A program made the position numbers and the translations under genes. DNA of 64,000 bases from Spinactinospora alkalitolerans. GTDB lineage: Bacteria > Actinomycetota > Actinomycetes > Streptosporangiales > Streptosporangiaceae. Under the pieces are notes generated by a model. That model searched no databases and had not been told where the DNA came from. It saw nothing but the letters and a program-made list of their open reading frames with translations. The DNA lies in NCBI RefSeq assembly GCF_013408795.1, contig NZ_JACCCC010000001.1, positions 6,510,001 to 6,574,000 on the forward strand. Direction: 5' to 3'. The stretch's first letter is position 1, and each line of letters starts with the position of its first letter. Positions 5,308 to 16,726 of this stretch are shown here, one piece after another.

Positions 5308-6759
5308 TCAGCAACGCAGTCGGCCGCGGCACGTCCCCGACGTGCCGTCGGTCGCTGTCGTGCCGCGAGGGATCCGGGGTCCTGTCGTCGGCCGCCGCGC
5401 GCGTCCGGCGCCCCCGGTCTCTCGGTTCGGCGGACTTCGCCGTCCGCCGGGGCGGTATGCTCTCGTTGTCCGTGTCCTCGCCCGGCCGAGGTGCGGCACA
5501 CCCGTCGAGGGGCCATAGCTCAGATGGCAGAGCGCCGGTTTTGCATACCGGAGGTCAGGGGTTCGACTCCCCTTGGCTCCACAAGCGAATAAGCAGGTCA
5601 GCAGAGACACCGACGGCCGCCCGCTCGATCGAGCGGGCGGCCGTTGCACATTCAGTGCACATGCCGGTGGCAGGTGTCCGTAAGTGTCCAGGGTCATGGT
5701 CGCGGTCTTGTGCCCGAGCATGGTCTGTACGACCTTCACGTCCGCGCCGGAGGCGATCGCCAGGGACGCCGCGGTGTGCCGGAGCTTGTGCGCGGTCACC
5801 TTCAACTCGGCGAGGCCGGCCCCCGCCACCGCGGGAGTGAAGACCCGCCGTCGGAAGTTGTCGTAGTACAGCGGGCCGCCTTGGGGAGCGGTGAACACGA
5901 GGCCGCCGCCGTCCTTGTCCTTGATCAGCGGGCGAAGCTCCTTCACCAGGAAGGCTGGGATGGGCACCGCGCGCTGTTCGTGGTTCTTGGGCGTTTCAAG
6001 GTAGAGCTTGCCGGATTCGCGGCCGTAGGTCTCGACGATCTGGATCCGCTTGCGCCGCAGGTCGATCCGGCCGACCTTCAGCGCCGACAGTTCGCCCCAG
6101 CGGAGCCCGGTGTAGGCCAGGAGCAGCACCAGCACCCGGTAGTCACCCGCCTTGGAAGCGAGCTTTTCGACCTGCACATGGTCAAGGTAGACGTGCTCGG
6201 TCGGCACGATCAGCGGCAGGCTCACACCGAGGGCCGGATTCGTCATGATCCGGTTCGCCTTCACGGCCCAGGCGAGTACCTGGAACAGCGTGTAGTAGAC
6301 CTTCCGGACGTAGGACGCGCTCAGTCTGCCCCCGCGTTTGCCCGGTTCCGTGACGAGCCGGTTCACCCAGTCGGCCACAGCTTCGAACCGCACCCGGTTC
6401 ACCGGGACCGTCCCCCACTCGGGGAGCACGTAGTTATCCAGGTGTTCGCGGTAGTCGCGCCGGGTCGAGCGCTTCAGATGGTGCTGTGCGGCCAACCACT
6501 TCTCCGCGAGCTCGGCGACCGACACCTTTCCGGCAGCCGGATCCCGGAAGGTTCCCGTGTCGAGCTGGCCCTCGATCTCGGTTTGCCGCTTCTCCGCCTT
6601 CGGTTTCTTGGCGAACGTCTCGCTTCGGATCTTCCCTGCGGGGTCGTAGTAGCGGACCTGCCACCGAGCCGGAGGAGTCCGCTTGGCCTTCTTCGCTCGG
6701 GCCACCGCGTCGCGGTAGGCCTTGTCCTTGGTCCGGTCGTAGATCCACGCCCTGGCCAT
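5308..6759 (-). CDS. int: site-specific tyrosine recombinase (integrase) of the integrative element
   Basis: This phage-type integrase inserts and, with Xis, excises the element. Catalytic residues are visible: Arg220 (TGLRWGE), His324/Arg327 (HKLRH), His350 (LGH) and nucleophile Tyr360 (DTYGHL). An N-terminal arm-binding region and a SAM-like core-binding domain (about 80-175) precede them. AAAGGAGG stands upstream of the ATG. The frame has no stop within the element. It runs through the 111-bp attachment repeat (residues about 371-406) and on into antisense tRNA-Ala and chromosome to 5308, giving 483 codons. The catalytic domain ends near residue 362, so the tail is probably neutral. In the excised circle the same frame would stop after about 423 codons. 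Confidence 0.9.
   Translation of the reverse strand: MARAWIYDRTKDKAYRDAVARAKKAKRTPPARWQVRYYDPAGKIRSETFAKKPKAEKRQTEIEGQLDTGTFRDPAAGKVSVAELAEKWLAAQHHLKRSTRRDYREHLDNYVLPEWGTVPVNRVRFEAVADWVNRLVTEPGKRGGRLSASYVRKVYYTLFQVLAWAVKANRIMTNPALGVSLPLIVPTEHVYLDHVQVEKLASKAGDYRVLVLLLAYTGLRWGELSALKVGRIDLRRKRIQIVETYGRESGKLYLETPKNHEQRAVPIPAFLVKELRPLIKDKDGGGLVFTAPQGGPLYYDNFRRRVFTPAVAGAGLAELKVTAHKLRHTAASLAIASGADVKVVQTMLGHKTATMTLDTYGHLPPACALNVQRPPARSSGRPSVSLLTCLFACGAKGSRTPDLRYAKPALCHLSYGPSTGVPHLGRARTRTTRAYRPGGRRSPPNRETGGAGRARRPTTGPRIPRGTTATDGTSGTCRGRLRC
5509..5581 (+). tRNA. tRNA-Ala (anticodon TGC)
   Basis: A full cloverleaf can be drawn. The acceptor GGGGCCA pairs with TGGCTCC (one G·T). The anticodon stem CCGGT/ACCGG carries loop TTTGCAT with anticodon TGC at 5542-5544, and the T-arm is GGGG TTCGACT CCCC. 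CCA is not encoded. The 3' part from the anticodon loop onward is shared with the attR copy, so integration left the tRNA intact at this end. Confidence 0.95.
5540..5650 (+). repeat. attL direct repeat (111 bp)
   Basis: Identical to 15424-15534. It starts exactly at the first base of the tRNA-Ala anticodon loop, covers the 3' half of the tRNA and continues 69 bases past it through a 28-bp palindrome. The flanks differ at both ends (T versus A before, T versus A after). The identity segment is longer than the 40-60 bp I would expect for tRNA-targeted elements. Confidence 0.93.
5615..5642. terminator. palindromic terminator downstream of tRNA-Ala
   Basis: A perfect 28-base palindrome (GGCCGCCCGCTCGA and its complement) lies 34 bases past the tRNA. 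It would terminate the tRNA transcript and, on the other strand, lies inside the integrase frame. A second copy is at 15499-15526 in attR. Confidence 0.55.
5645..5661. promoter_or_regulatory. candidate integrase/Xis arm site near attL
   Basis: TGCACATTCAGTGCACA, with TGCAC/GTGCA half-sites, straddles the element-side edge of attL. A one-base variant occurs at 15300-15316, on the inner side of attR. No third copy was noticed. Terminal pairs like this are typical of arm-type recombinase sites. Confidence 0.4.
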
Positions 6760-8768: not shown

Positions 8769-9002
8769 ATGTCCCCGAAGTTCTATCGCACGGTGTCCCC
8801 GAAGTTCTACCGCGCGGTCCATACCTACTCCGCTGCCGTCTGGTTCGTGAGCGCGGCGTTCATGTTCGTCATGTACTGGCCGCTCTCGCATCTGCCGCTG
8901 CTGTTTGCTCTGGTGTTCGGCGGCGGAGCTCTGGTACTGGGAGTCCGCGACATCGTCAGAGCGGCCAGAGGACCCAGGCAGCCCCAAAAGAGCACGCATT
9001 AG
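8769..9002 (+). CDS. small two-helix membrane protein of the element
   Basis: The 77-residue product starts with a tandem SPKFYRTV/SPKFYRAV duplication, then has two hydrophobic helices (about residues 20-38 and 42-60) and a basic tail. GGAGGC sits upstream of the ATG. It is the only rightward gene in the replication/transfer half of the element. It overlaps the 3' end of the FtsK-like gene by four bases. Position and size recall the Spd spread proteins of actinomycete plasmids, but I see no specific motif. The opposite-strand frame here has antisense-like composition and was not called. Confidence 0.6.
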   Translation: MSPKFYRTVSPKFYRAVHTYSAAVWFVSAAFMFVMYWPLSHLPLLFALVFGGGALVLGVRDIVRAARGPRQPQKSTH

Positions 9003-10417
9003 ACCGCACCACCGCCACGCCCACAGCCGCCCGCCATGGCGTCGATGTCGGCATCGCTGACGAACGCGGCCCGGACGCGGACCGGGGCCGGGGAGCCCTC
9101 CAGGCGGACGAAGGCCACGCCGGGGAGGTCCGGGTCGATCAGGTGGGCGTTGGCGCCCCTCTCGCGTGCGCCGTCGCCGAGCACCATGTCCACCTGGCTT
9201 GCTTCGTCCAGGCGTAGCGCGATCTTGTCGGGGAAGAGGTTGCGCAGGTTCAGCACCTCCTTGCGCGGATCCTGCAGCGCGGCCAGCACCGACACCCCGA
9301 CCGAGCGGCCTTGGGAGGTGAGGGTGGCCAGCGCGTTCTCGGCGCGGCGGCGGATGTCGCGGTCGGGGTGGTAGGCGGTCACAAACGCGACCTCGTCGAC
9401 CACCACGGCCACGAACGGATCCGCTTCGGTGGGCGTGTGGACGCGCTGTTTACCGGCGTAGCGCGCGGCCCGGTCCTGCATCATCGAGACCGCCGCTTCG
9501 AGCAGGCCCACCGCGGCTTCTCCGGTGTCGGCATACTCGGCGAACAGGGATCGGCCGTAGGACAGCTCCATCCGCTTGGGATCGACCGCCCACACCTGCG
9601 CCGTACCGTCCTCGATCGCGGGCAGCATCGCACGCACGGCCGACCAGATCACCGAACCCTTCCCCGCCCCGGTCACCCCCACCGTCAGGACATGGGTGCC
9701 GTGCAACCGCAGCCGCCACGGTGCGCCGTCCTCGCGCTTGCCGGCCGGCAGTGCCGCCAAGTCGACATGGCGCGGTACCGGCAAAGCGCCGATCGGCTCG
9801 GCCAGGGTGTCGAAGCGCGGGAACTCCAGCACCACATCCCGCGGCCCGTTCACCGTCACCCGGCACGACGGCGCGCCGAAGCCGTGCGCCAACTCCGTGA
9901 CCCGCTGCTCCACGTCGGCCGGGGCGGTGCCGGCCACCAGGCGCACCCGCACCCGATCCGACCACGCAGAGCAGGTCACCCGCCGGATGCGCGGCAGGTA
10001 CTGGCGCTCCTGGTAGGACTCCGCCAACCCCGCCACGACCAGCACCGGTTGCCAGTGCCGCCGATACACCCACACCCACCGCCAGGCCGCCAGCGCCCGC
10101 AGCGCCACCAGCCGCCGAAACGAGGACGGCCAGCGCCGCCACCACACCAGCAGCCCCACGTCCGCGACCGTCCAGACCACGGCTAGCGCCACCCAGCCGA
10201 AGGCGTGCCACACCGCCACCGAAACGGCCGCCGTGCCCACCGCGACGGGAAAGCGGACCGGTAGCCGCACCAGCAGGCCCACGAGCCGGGCGATCCAGCG
10301 GGCGAGGACGAAAATCCCCGGGGTCTCCACCACCGGGGTGGAGAACCGCACGGTCTGGGCCGGAACCGGCGCGGTGGGCTGCACCGCGGCCCCGGCGTTC
10401 CTGGAACGCAGCATCAC
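8999..10417 (-). CDS. FtsK/SpoIIIE-type DNA transfer ATPase (TraB/TraSA-like)
   Basis: The 472-residue protein has two N-terminal membrane helices (about residues 50-95). Its RecA-like motor has Walker A GVTGAGKGS (residues 247-255) and Walker B VAVVVDEVAF (around residue 340). TraB proteins of actinomycete plasmids and AICEs move double-stranded DNA between hyphae as a hexameric pump. The product is shorter than full FtsK and lacks a clear gamma domain, consistent with this class. Its start overlaps the stop of the preceding small gene by four bases (ATGA). It is expected to be repressed by the KorSA-like protein. Confidence 0.85.
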   Translation of the reverse strand: MMLRSRNAGAAVQPTAPVPAQTVRFSTPVVETPGIFVLARWIARLVGLLVRLPVRFPVAVGTAAVSVAVWHAFGWVALAVVWTVADVGLLVWWRRWPSSFRRLVALRALAAWRWVWVYRRHWQPVLVVAGLAESYQERQYLPRIRRVTCSAWSDRVRVRLVAGTAPADVEQRVTELAHGFGAPSCRVTVNGPRDVVLEFPRFDTLAEPIGALPVPRHVDLAALPAGKREDGAPWRLRLHGTHVLTVGVTGAGKGSVIWSAVRAMLPAIEDGTAQVWAVDPKRMELSYGRSLFAEYADTGEAAVGLLEAAVSMMQDRAARYAGKQRVHTPTEADPFVAVVVDEVAFVTAYHPDRDIRRRAENALATLTSQGRSVGVSVLAALQDPRKEVLNLRNLFPDKIALRLDEASQVDMVLGDGARERGANAHLIDPDLPGVAFVRLEGSPAPVRVRAAFVSDADIDAMAGGCGRGGGAV

Positions 10418-11289: not shown

Positions 11290-12021
11290 TCAGGAAGCCG
11301 GGTAGTTGTCTTCCAGTTCGTGCAGGTCACCGGGGAGGACGACGTCCGCGACCGCGATGACGCCCTCGGAGGCGTCGAGAATGCTGGCGATGACGCCGAG
11401 CACCGGGGTCCCCGAGTCGAGCTGGAGAAGCTCCCTTTCCTGCTCCGTGGCCAGCCGGGCCGACAGGCGCTCGGAGATGCGCGCCGGGCGCAGCTGCTTG
11501 ACCGCCTGGAGGTGTTCCCTGACTCCGATGCTGATGACGTGCTCTTCTGCGAGGTCGGTTCCCGAAGCCACATCCAGTGGGAACCACAGGGTGACGAGTT
11601 CACTCGGAGAGCCGTCGTCGAGGATGACCCGTTGCCGCATGATCGCCGGGGAGTTCTCCGGCAGCTTCAGAGCGTCCGCGACCGTCGCCGGTGTGCTCGC
11701 GCGCCCAACGCCGGTGATCCTGCTGCCCTTGGGGTTCTCCGCCGCGTCGAAGGCGCTCGCCCCCGCGTGGGAGCGTTCGGCCGACTGCTCGGGCACTCCC
11801 TTGACGAAGGAGCCGCGCCCGTGCTCGCGCTCGATCCAGCCACGCATGCTGAGGATCTGCAAGGCCCGGACCACCGTGCTGCGGCCGGCCCCGAACTCGC
11901 GCACCATGCGCGACTCGGAGGGCAGCATCTCCCCCACCGGGTAAGTGCCGTCTTCGATGCGCTCTTGGACCGCCTGGACGATCTGCACGTATTTAGGAGG
12001 AGCGAACTCCAGATTCGACAT
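11290..12021 (-). CDS. GntR/HutC-family repressor (KorSA-like)
   Basis: The 243-residue protein has an N-terminal winged helix (YVQIVQAVQERIEDGTYPVGEMLPSESRMVREFGAGRSTVVRALQIL, about residues 11-57). A C-terminal UTRA-type ligand-binding domain starts near residue 100. In pSAM2, the GntR protein KorSA represses pra and itself and keeps the element integrated. Here the gene sits directly upstream of the Pra-like gene, and the same operator type occurs before both genes. Unlike the element's structural genes, its ligand, if any, is unknown. Confidence 0.85.
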   Translation of the reverse strand: MSNLEFAPPKYVQIVQAVQERIEDGTYPVGEMLPSESRMVREFGAGRSTVVRALQILSMRGWIEREHGRGSFVKGVPEQSAERSHAGASAFDAAENPKGSRITGVGRASTPATVADALKLPENSPAIMRQRVILDDGSPSELVTLWFPLDVASGTDLAEEHVISIGVREHLQAVKQLRPARISERLSARLATEQERELLQLDSGTPVLGVIASILDASEGVIAVADVVLPGDLHELEDNYPAS

Positions 12022-12708: not shown

Positions 12709-13069
12709 CGTTCCACCTGCTTCGATCAGGTTGGGACCACGCCCCCGGAGTGTTCGCAGCACTCGCGGGGGTCACTTGTCAGACGTCATGCGGCAGCCGC
12801 ACCGGTCCCCGCGCAGACGGGGCACCGGATGGAACGGAGTCCGGAGGACACGCCCGGTTTAGGGCGCAGCACGACAACCTTGCGCGGTCGCACGCTCTTG
12901 CGTCCTCGTCCTCGGCAGGACCGGCACTTCTCAGCGGCTCGCGCATCACTCATGCATCAAGGTTCCAAGAGAAGCAAGGGCCTTTCCCATGTCCTGATAC
13001 CGCCTCAGCGCTGAACTTTCACTGCACTTGGGCCTTTTTGCGGACCGGAGCCAATGCCAGACTGGGGCC
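12709..13069. other. 361-base divergent intergenic region
   Basis: No convincing gene is visible. It should hold the promoters of the leftward small genes and the rightward cargo pair. CAGACT ends six bases before the ATG at 13070, which would give a leaderless cargo transcript, but the -35 is unclear. Confidence 0.5.
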
Positions 13070-13849
13070 ATGGCAGAACTCAACGGCGTACCGGTCACAG
13101 CCGGTGAGCTTCAAACGCTCGCGCTGGTCAACTACGGTCACTTCACATCCATGCGGGTGGACGACCAGCACATTCGCGGACTTTCCCACCACATGGACCG
13201 ACTCGTCAAGGACTGCCGCGAGGTCTTCGGCGCAGGACTCGACAGGGACCGAGCGCGCGAACTCGTCCGCCACGCGGTTGGGAACCAGACCGGATCATGC
13301 GTCGTGCGCGTGACCGTATTCGACCCCGCGCTTGAGTTGGGGCACCCCGGCGTTTCGGCCGATCCGCACGTGTTGGTCACCACCCGATCAGCGGCGGCAT
13401 GGCCGCCGGCCCCGATGCGGGCCCAGTCGGCCGTCTACACGCGCGACATGCCGTTGGTGAAACACATCGGCCTGTTCGGCGCGATCAGGCACCGCCGCAA
13501 CGCCCAACTCAACGGCTTTGACGATGCCGTGTTCATCGACACCGCCTCTTTCATTTCCGAAGGCGCCACCTGGAACATCGCCTTCTTCGATGGCGAACAG
13601 GTCGTCTGGCCGGACGCGGAGGTCCTTCCCGGGGTGACGATGCGTCTTCTGCAGCAGGTTCACGAGAAAACGGTGACCGCCCCCGTCAGCCTCCACGACC
13701 TGCACCAAATGCAGGCGGCGTTCGCAACCAATACAACGGTCGGCGTGCGCCCCATCACCGCCATCGACGGCATCGAGTTCCCCGCCGACCACGAGATCTT
13801 CGATTCCCTGCGCAAGGAGTACGAAGAGATCCCCGCGGAACAGATCTAA
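13070..13849 (+). CDS. aminotransferase class IV-fold PLP protein (cargo)
   Basis: The 259-residue protein has the fold of IlvE, D-amino-acid aminotransferase and PabC. Lys of VKHIGLFGAIRHRRNAQLNGFDDAVFID fits the PLP lysine, and SEGATWNIAFFDGE matches the conserved phosphate-binding glutamate segment. Ends such as AFATNTTVGVRPITAIDGIEF correspond to the SNS..GV.PV..ID block. The start ATG was preferred over an upstream GTG/ATG because a possible -10 lies close to it. It forms an operon with the XRE-SUMF1 gene 35 bases downstream. Substrate cannot be told; the protein is shorter than IlvE and closer in length to PabC-like lyases. Confidence 0.8.
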   Translation: MAELNGVPVTAGELQTLALVNYGHFTSMRVDDQHIRGLSHHMDRLVKDCREVFGAGLDRDRARELVRHAVGNQTGSCVVRVTVFDPALELGHPGVSADPHVLVTTRSAAAWPPAPMRAQSAVYTRDMPLVKHIGLFGAIRHRRNAQLNGFDDAVFIDTASFISEGATWNIAFFDGEQVVWPDAEVLPGVTMRLLQQVHEKTVTAPVSLHDLHQMQAAFATNTTVGVRPITAIDGIEFPADHEIFDSLRKEYEEIPAEQI

Positions 13850-13884
13850 GGCTTTACACGTCTCCCTTACCCCCAGGAGAACCG

Positions 13885-14859
13885 ATGTCTGCACCGACCA
13901 TTCAGCTCTGGTCCGGGCGCGAGGTCCGCGCGCTCCGTGAGGCCAAGCGAATGAGCATCCGCGCGTTCGCCGCCCACCTCGGAGTGAGCGAGCGAATGGT
14001 GTCAAAATGGGAGAAGAACGGCGAGGACATTCACCCCCGCCCGGTGAACCAGCAGGCGTTGGACTCGTCCTTGGCCGCATCAAGCGCCGACGTTCAGGCC
14101 CGGTTCGAAAACCTCGTCGGCCCGGCAACGGCGACCGCGCGTGAGGAGCATCCCGAGCAGGCGGCGAAACAGGAGCCCGCTCCACCGTCCCTCAACGAAC
14201 CGCACCAGGTGCGCCACCCCGTGGACGGCAAGCTGATGACCCTCGTCGAGGCCGGGGTCTACCTCTCCGGCGAGGGCAACGAGTCGGTCTACCTCCCCGC
14301 GTTCTACATCGACGTCTTTCCGACGACCAACGCCGACTACTCCCGCTTCCTCGCGGCAACCGGCCACCCCGCCCCGCAGCACTGGGAGAACGCCACACCT
14401 CCCGCCGACCTCTACGACCACCCGGTCGTATTCGTCACCTGGAAGGACGCCGCAGCCTACGCGAGCTGGGCCGCGAAGTCCCTACCGGCGAGCAGGCAAT
14501 GGGAGAAGGCGGCACGAGGTACCCGGGGCGACGTCTATCCATGGGGGAGCCAGCGCACACCGGCCAAGTGCAACGTGCGTGAGAGCCAGCTCCGCAGCAC
14601 AACACCCGTCAGCCGCTACCACAGCGGAGTGAGCCCGTACGGCGTCTACGACATGTGCGGCAACATCTGGGAATGGTGCTCCACAGAGTCCGAACCAGGC
14701 CGCTACGAACTCAAGGGCAGCGCGTTCACAAGCCCGTTCTTCCGGGCGACGCCGTCGAACTTCAACGACGCATCAACCGAGATGCTCGACGACGACACCG
14801 GGTTCCGCTGCGTCACCCCATCTGAAACCATGCAGGCCCTCTTGAAGCTCAACACGTGA
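13885..14859 (+). CDS. XRE helix-turn-helix fused to SUMF1 (FGE-type) domain (cargo)
   Basis: Residues 8-45 form an XRE DNA-binding domain (VRALREAKRMSIRAFAAHLGVSERMVSKWEK). After a linker, residues about 115-315 form a SUMF1/FGE domain. It contains YIDVFPTTNADYSRFLAATGH, WKDAAAYASWAAKSLPASRQWEKAARG, YPWG, SPYGVYDMCGNIWEWC and GFRC. The block that bears the two copper-binding cysteines of true formylglycine-generating enzymes is replaced by KGSAFTSPFFRATPSN. FGE chemistry is therefore unlikely, and the domain is probably a ligand- or protein-binding fold. AGGAGA precedes the ATG. Regulation of the partner aminotransferase or sensing of its product is inference. Confidence 0.85.
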   Translation: MSAPTIQLWSGREVRALREAKRMSIRAFAAHLGVSERMVSKWEKNGEDIHPRPVNQQALDSSLAASSADVQARFENLVGPATATAREEHPEQAAKQEPAPPSLNEPHQVRHPVDGKLMTLVEAGVYLSGEGNESVYLPAFYIDVFPTTNADYSRFLAATGHPAPQHWENATPPADLYDHPVVFVTWKDAAAYASWAAKSLPASRQWEKAARGTRGDVYPWGSQRTPAKCNVRESQLRSTTPVSRYHSGVSPYGVYDMCGNIWEWCSTESEPGRYELKGSAFTSPFFRATPSNFNDASTEMLDDDTGFRCVTPSETMQALLKLNT

Positions 14860-14890: not shown

Positions 14891-14913
14891 GCGACGGCGC
14901 TTCGCGCCGTCGC
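14891..14913. terminator. hairpin terminator after the cargo operon
   Basis: GCGACGGCG and CGCCGTCGC pair perfectly around a CTTCG loop, 31 bases past the XRE-SUMF1 stop codon. A stem capped by UUCG is exceptionally stable. Confidence 0.6.
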
Positions 14914-15423: not shown

Positions 15424-15534
15424 TTTGCATACCGGAGGTCAGGGGTTCGACTCCCCTTGGCTCCACAAGCGAATAAGCAGGTCAGCAGAGACACCGACGG
15501 CCGCCCGCTCGATCGAGCGGGCGGCCGTTGCACA
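15424..15534 (+). repeat. attR direct repeat (111 bp)
   Basis: Exact copy of 5540-5650. It carries the 3' half of tRNA-Ala without a 5' half, so it is a tRNA remnant, not a functional gene. It also carries the 28-bp palindrome. Confidence 0.93.
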
Positions 15535-15997
15535 ATCGCTGTGCTGCGCGCCTGCATCTGGAGACGCCGCCCGAGCTCCGGCAGCCCCCGCTTCGAGATC
15601 GCTTCAGAGGCCGTGGAAGCGTCCCCGCCCAACGCCTTTGCCAGCGGGGGCATGTCGGGGCCTCCTCTCGAGACCTCCATGGGAGGACGCGCTACCGGCA
15701 GGGGTCCCTTCGGATCCCCGTTCCTCGTTCCGGACGGCCCTGCGGGCGTTACCGCAGTGTTTGAAGGCCGAAGTGGGCGAGGGCCCGGCCGGCGCGCCGG
15801 GAACGAACGGGGCTCCGCGGTCGTCACACGGGATGACGCCCGACGGCTTTTTTCGTGCCGGAGCTCGAAATCAGGGTGGATTCAGGGTCCGTCCCTCATG
15901 CGCGGCACGGCGAGATCGCGCATGATGGAGATTCGAGCACCACGCGGACCGCCCCGATTGAAGGGGCCCGTCACCGGTGACGAGGCAAGGAGTGAGT
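15535..15997. other. 463-base gene-free chromosomal flank
   Basis: I see no gene here. Short GC-rich palindromic bits such as CCTCC...GGAGG are present. The promoter of the DUF1707 gene is expected in the last 100 bases. AAGGAG at 15987 is its ribosome binding site. Confidence 0.5.
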
Positions 15998-16645: not shown

Positions 16646-16660
16646 GCTCCCCGCGCCCCG

Positions 16661-16708
16661 AACGACGGCGGCGGCCCCGCGATCGATCGCGGGGCCGCCG
16701 CCGTCGTT
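16661..16708. terminator. bidirectional terminator
   Basis: A perfect 48-base palindrome, with AACGACGGCGGCGGCCCCGC as its left half start, lies between two convergent genes and should terminate both. Confidence 0.75.
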
Positions 16709-16726
16709 CGTGCGGTGCCGCGGCCG

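Follow-up and report, generated by a model that had tools for sequence, protein, structure and literature searches.

Why should a mobile element of Spinactinospora alkalitolerans carry, side by side, a class IV aminotransferase and a protein that joins an XRE-type DNA-binding domain to an FGE-type (SUMF1) domain? The two genes lie in a 64,000-nucleotide stretch of the genome (contig NZ_JACCCC010000001.1, positions 6,510,001 to 6,574,000; hereafter the window, in whose coordinates all positions are given). They had been predicted from the DNA as an enzyme-sensor system of a form not described before; we found both to be real, with the predicted boundaries, and we found no description of the pair or of XRE-SUMF1 regulators in the open-access literature.

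The carrier element and its last cargo

The features on which the argument depends are as follows.

5540-5653: left att repeat, overlapping the 3' end of tRNA-Ala (5509-5582)
5644-6759, minus strand: tyrosine integrase of the AICE (open reading frame 5308-6759; integrase motifs; relatives in AICE loci)
8999-10417, minus strand: TraB/FtsK-like transfer protein (weak matches to NF041214 TraB and PF01580; 90-92% identical copies in three sibling elements)
11290-12021, minus strand: GntR-UTRA regulator of the element (PF00392 and PF07702 above cut-off)
13011-13029, plus strand: putative operator, a direct repeat of 11-bp period, CTGAACTTTCA/CTGCACTT (lag-11 signal; tracks the regulator gene)
13058-13063, plus strand: -10-like hexamer CAGACT (TGNNAGACT motif), 6 nt ahead of the aminotransferase start codon
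13070-13849, plus strand: class IV aminotransferase, a fold-type IV PLP enzyme of the PRK09266 subfamily (PF01063, 126 bits; NF006734, 336 bits)
13885-14859, plus strand: XRE-SUMF1 fusion (PF03781, 123 bits; HTH_31 and HTH_3 just above their cut-offs)
about 14891-14913, plus strand: GC-rich hairpin 3' of the operon, with no T-run (from folding; the terminator scan makes no call)
15424-15537: right att repeat, 99% identical to the left copy

The carrier is a 9.9-kb AICE-type element with 114-bp direct repeats as att sites, and it has the integrase, Rep, TraB/FtsK-type transfer gene and tRNA-associated att repeats that define such elements; the reading frame of the integrase continues across the att site. 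As predicted, the pair sits at the cargo end: it is the last cargo, with the GntR/transfer module on one side and the right att repeat on the other. The same genome holds three sibling AICEs (L230, L231 and L232, at about 1.60, 5.96 and 5.89 Mb), which share, besides the TraB copies, a nearly identical Rep, have different integrases, and are flanked by repeats of ~100 bp. In the same slot they carry an XRE gene with a flavoprotein gene; an XRE gene with genes for an ABM monooxygenase and a HATPase; and HTH genes with genes for HD and NUDIX proteins. Since the siblings fill this slot with other genes, the pair is an optional part of the cargo, and combinations of XRE and enzyme genes may recur at this position. 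Past the AICE, in chromosomal DNA, the window also contains a perfect 26-bp inverted repeat with no spacer (16659-16710).

The gap between the two genes is 35 bp and includes AGGAG ahead of the second, so that a single operon, as originally proposed, is likely. The aminotransferase mRNA is probably leaderless, given the position of the -10-like hexamer. The operon had also been credited with its own terminator: the strong GC hairpin downstream speaks for one, whereas its missing T-run and the negative terminator scan do not.

The enzyme and the cysteine-less SUMF1 domain

The aminotransferase belongs to NCBIfam NF006734/PRK09266, whose cut-off of 202 bits it clears at 336. Its catalytic lysine, K131, and E164 are invariant in 50 relatives, and its structural model (pLDDT 94) superposes about equally well on DAAT, BCAT and ADC lyase (Z 26-28). 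Against the NCBIfam equivalogs it falls below every cut-off: the best ADC lyase match scores 50 bits against cut-offs of 177-273, BCAT 46 against 279 and DAAT 24 against 277. The fold alone does not decide among these three enzymes. One lead to the substrate comes from a genus (g3, loci L189-L198) in which an unpaired PRK09266 relative with 45-50% identity comes after a GntR-FCD gene and adjoins 5-oxoprolinase-type (LamB/YcsF, CT_C_D, CT_A_B), Nramp-like and D-glutamate cyclase-type genes. This neighbourhood would fit a link of the PRK09266 family to D-amino acids or 5-oxoproline, and hints only faintly at the same for the paired enzyme.

The second protein consists of an XRE-type HTH (residues ~10-65), a disordered linker (82-103) and a SUMF1/FGE-type domain (~107-312). 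Its HTH matches HTH_31 at 27.1 bits (cut-off 27) and HTH_3 at 26.2 bits (cut-off 23), and the model (pLDDT 89) places five helices in residues 11-78 in the HTH_3-like fold of XRE regulators. PF03781 matches residues 133-310, so the fold of FGE is present. The copper-binding catalytic cysteine pair is not: in the GGSYLCHxSYC block, where the cargo protein has KGSAFTSPFFRATP, two genuine FGEs encoded in this genome have GGSYLCHRSYC and GGSYLCHDSYC, and a CxxSxC block occurs in 0 of the 110 sequences of the XRE-SUMF1 set, some of them partial or duplicate. The predicted loss of the FGE cysteine block from an intact fold thus stands, and a normal FGE with its cysteines at another site is not what we find. 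By sequence criteria the domain is a pseudo-FGE, catalytically dead with its fold kept. Its closest sequence match in the PDB is SUMF2, in which the catalytic cysteines are likewise missing, and by fold it is most like ToxD and SUMF2. Without the FGE cysteines, and with its closest likeness in a protein that also lost them, the domain most likely senses; it is from the lost catalysis that we regard it as a probable sensor.

The domain might instead be an enzyme with another chemistry, of the EgtB, PvdO or ToxD kind, acting in the same pathway as the aminotransferase, with the HTH secondary. All three proteins are among its fold matches, and H166, H179 and C258 are nearly invariant. However, C258 is replaced by valine in L032 and L035, the conserved positions resemble a scaffold common to the whole superfamily, no member of the set has the FGE cysteine pair, and the tie between operator and HTH described below points to selection on DNA binding. 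An enzymatic SUMF1 domain seems improbable to us. The NCBIfam equivalog cut-offs for sulfoxide or selenoxide synthases lie far above the scores of the domain (EgtB, 65 bits against a cut-off of 360; SenA, 58 against 420; OvoA, 34 against 400).

Distribution of the pair and the repeat that follows the regulator

Repeated co-occurrence of the two genes in mobile elements had been named as support for a true system, and a single occurrence as evidence against one. Our locus set comprises 83 non-redundant full-length XRE-SUMF1 loci, from sources that include named genomes, twelve plasmid records and one IMG/VR contig. In 78 of the 83 the aminotransferase lies directly upstream on the same strand, with a gap of 16-104 bp, and the pair is often on a mobile element: the settings are plasmids, AICEs, one prophage contig (the IMG/VR contig, where genes for endolysin, tape-measure and structural proteins adjoin the pair) and chromosomes. 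AICE-like integrase, transfer or replication genes occur within the fetched stretch at 23 of 87 loci, and phage GenBank records gave no match. Close XRE-SUMF1 proteins are present in ~22 of 297 sampled genomes of the order and, in a phylum-wide sample of 396 genomes, in the own genome and one other only.

No third gene is constant beside the pair among 77 loci. The recurring neighbours are specific to lineages or elements: GntR, an RsbW-like ATPase, XRE-DUF5753/DUF397, and two gene clusters. One of these, conserved and divergent to the pair at L041, L042, L043, L049 and L071, encodes a SAM-synthetase-like protein and seryl-tRNA synthetase, along with glycosyltransferase, histidine phosphatase-like and kinase-like proteins, and is possibly a natural-product cluster. 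The other adjoins the pair in Nocardia (L084, L086, L087 and L095) and includes glycyl-tRNA synthetase-like, radical-SAM-like and SIS-domain/kinase-like genes. The protein names in both clusters come from reading of the sequences.

The aminotransferase also occurs without its partner in many genomes, and some of these unpaired relatives are 70-81% identical. In the tree, unpaired enzymes fall at several points within groups of paired ones, from which it follows that the partner was probably lost several times. These facts bear on the possibility that the pair is a toxin-antitoxin or addiction module, one partner toxic and the other neutralising, as was once proposed for XRE-DUF397 pairs. Two genes in one operon, one of them for an XRE protein, and carriage by plasmids, AICEs and a prophage would suit such a module; autoregulation is typical of toxin-antitoxin loci, and the autoregulation that we propose below fits that habit. 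Yet the enzyme persists intact where the partner was lost, and beside broken XRE-SUMF1 genes (L020-L022), while XRE-SUMF1 in turn stands alone at three loci (L083, L096 and L097). We know of no fold-type IV PLP enzyme that acts as a toxin. Both genes here occur alone, at odds with a type II toxin-antitoxin system, and a role in element maintenance, which the original prediction had allowed, is disfavoured in the form of addiction. We consider an addiction module very unlikely.

What distinguishes the promoters of paired enzymes is a direct repeat. In the window it reads CTGAACTTTCACTGCACTT and lies 40 bp ahead of the aminotransferase start; its typical form upstream of paired aminotransferases is CTGAACTTTCACTGAACTT, with a period of 11. 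Across 82 upstream regions, lag 11 stands out at z = 24 relative to dinucleotide shuffles, with all other lags at z <= 5. Under a fixed rule, the repeat is called in 56 of 82 paired promoters and in 1 of 33 unpaired ones (p = 3e-11), and in 0 of 114 control regions further upstream. Most of the 26 paired promoters that fail the rule have a degenerate copy; some loci, such as L057, L080 and L094, have no clear repeat. The 70-81% identical unpaired aminotransferases have none, and at the three loci where XRE-SUMF1 stands without the enzyme, the repeat is found before XRE-SUMF1 itself. The -10-like motif precedes most of the unpaired aminotransferase genes as well as the paired ones, so the feature that tracks the regulator is the repeat rather than the promoter.

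Two variants of the repeat were seen. In one Streptomyces clade (L065, L067, L069, L072, L075 and L114) the period is 10 rather than 11 (CCGAACTAATCCGAACTTTGG), and AICE-borne copies from Pseudonocardiaceae and relatives (L047, L048, L050 and L055) have three or four tandem half-sites upstream of the aminotransferase instead of two.

The bases of the repeat vary with the recognition helix, which spans residues 36-48 of the XRE-SUMF1 model. Residue 36 goes with the first base of both half-sites: E36 with T in 26 of 29 cases and D36 with C in 17 of 17 (p = 7e-10, from counts uncorrected for relatedness, with residue 36 changing only ~3 times on the tree). An Asn-Pro helix start likewise goes with TGAC half-sites in one Nocardia and one Streptomyces group. 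Relatedness-corrected sign tests have too few independent changes for significance, and all informative pairs are in the expected direction. Many actinobacterial regulators bind direct repeats, and the repeat could on that account belong to another regulator with which XRE-SUMF1 merely co-occurs. However, its presence goes with XRE-SUMF1 and not with the host or the aminotransferase, and there is covariation between its bases and the recognition helix of XRE-SUMF1, so that ownership by a different protein strikes us as very unlikely.

In its own genome, the site at 13011-13029 is the sole match with up to 3 mismatches. Four relatives have exactly one match each, at the same promoter, and one further relative has one extra weak match. 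A single operator-like site in the genome speaks against a genome-wide regulon of XRE-SUMF1.

Proposed mechanism and comparison with known systems

Taken together, we think it likely that XRE-SUMF1 is a dedicated one-component autoregulator whose HTH binds the repeat and whose pseudo-FGE domain is the probable sensor. Bound to the 11-bp-period repeat just upstream of the operon promoter, it would control expression of the aminotransferase and of itself; the in-silico evidence for this is strong and, judging from the conserved DNA, the pair's own promoter is its likely target. The SUMF1 domain would set the output of the operon in response to a small molecule, which might be one that the neighbouring PLP enzyme consumes or produces. 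The module travels on AICEs, plasmids and prophages as an optional part of their cargo. The repeat adjoins a non-consensus -35 region, which tips the balance very slightly toward activation of the operon over repression. Of the sensor controlling DNA that was originally envisaged, the DNA-binding-type protein, the dead FGE-type domain and a putative operator at its own promoter are now in place, and the sensing itself is carried forward as probable. The pair is a patchily distributed, probably self-regulated enzyme-regulator module whose type of sensor domain is possibly new. The broader reading, in which dead FGE domains form a new class of small-molecule or peptide sensors, the aminotransferase makes or removes the ligand, and the whole is a self-contained metabolite-signalling circuit that AICEs, plasmids and prophages spread across actinobacteria, is possible but in our view less likely than not.

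A defence role, also among those first suggested, in which the FGE fold would recognise an invader protein and the HTH trigger a response, is highly unlikely: the pair is mobile, and FGE-type domains have been proposed as sensors or effectors in bacterial conflict systems (PMC10907252, PMC7159879), but PADLOC returns nothing beyond weak HTH matches (E 0.002 and above) and thus no known anti-phage system, the loci have no fixed defence neighbours, the sole putative operator is at the pair's own operon, and an aminotransferase that persists without its regulator is implausible as an effector.

If the autoregulator model is true, the FGE fold gains a further role, sensing in transcription, besides catalysis and target recognition. 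The PF03781 fold is common to the cargo protein, FGE/SUMF1 and SUMF2 (pFGE, PDB 1y4j), the last of which likewise has no catalytic cysteines. By contrast with FGE and SUMF2, the cargo domain is cytoplasmic, is joined to an XRE domain, has an aminotransferase as its partner and has no cysteine block. As a putative C-terminal binding module of a multidomain protein, it resembles the FGS/CLec-type domains of conflict systems and DGR targets (PMC7159879, PMC10907252); there the partners are vWA, STAND, EAD and others, whereas here control of the own operon is predicted.

The closest parallel in organization is with the XRE-DUF397 pairs of Streptomyces (Scr1/Scr2, WhiJ-like; PMC6262351, PMC10364602), which are likewise mobile and patchy two-gene XRE modules of actinobacteria, with the difference that the DUF397 partner is a small protein rather than an enzyme and that there is no SUMF1 domain. 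Some XRE-DUF397 pairs adjoin the aminotransferase/XRE-SUMF1 pair. If the autoregulator model is true, the present module would also offer a compact and testable pair of regulator and operator, whose specificity code can be read by setting helix residues 35-36 beside the bases of the half-sites.

The carrier, with its integrase, replication protein, TraB/FtsK-like protein, GntR regulator, att sites at a tRNA gene and variable cargo, has the same make-up as pSAM2-type AICEs, for which two surveys (PMC9513070 and PMC3218068) describe variable cargo. The sections consulted of these surveys do not name an aminotransferase/XRE-SUMF1 pair. Were our model to hold, AICE cargo could be a tightly self-regulated enzyme module, besides resistance or defence genes. 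Finally, the cargo enzyme has its fold and catalytic lysine in common with PRK09266 and other class IV aminotransferases (DAAT, BCAT, aminodeoxychorismate lyase) and differs from them in being coupled to a dedicated regulator, a coupling that would provide a handle on the orphan PRK09266 family, as the regulator's ligand should point to the substrate of the enzyme.
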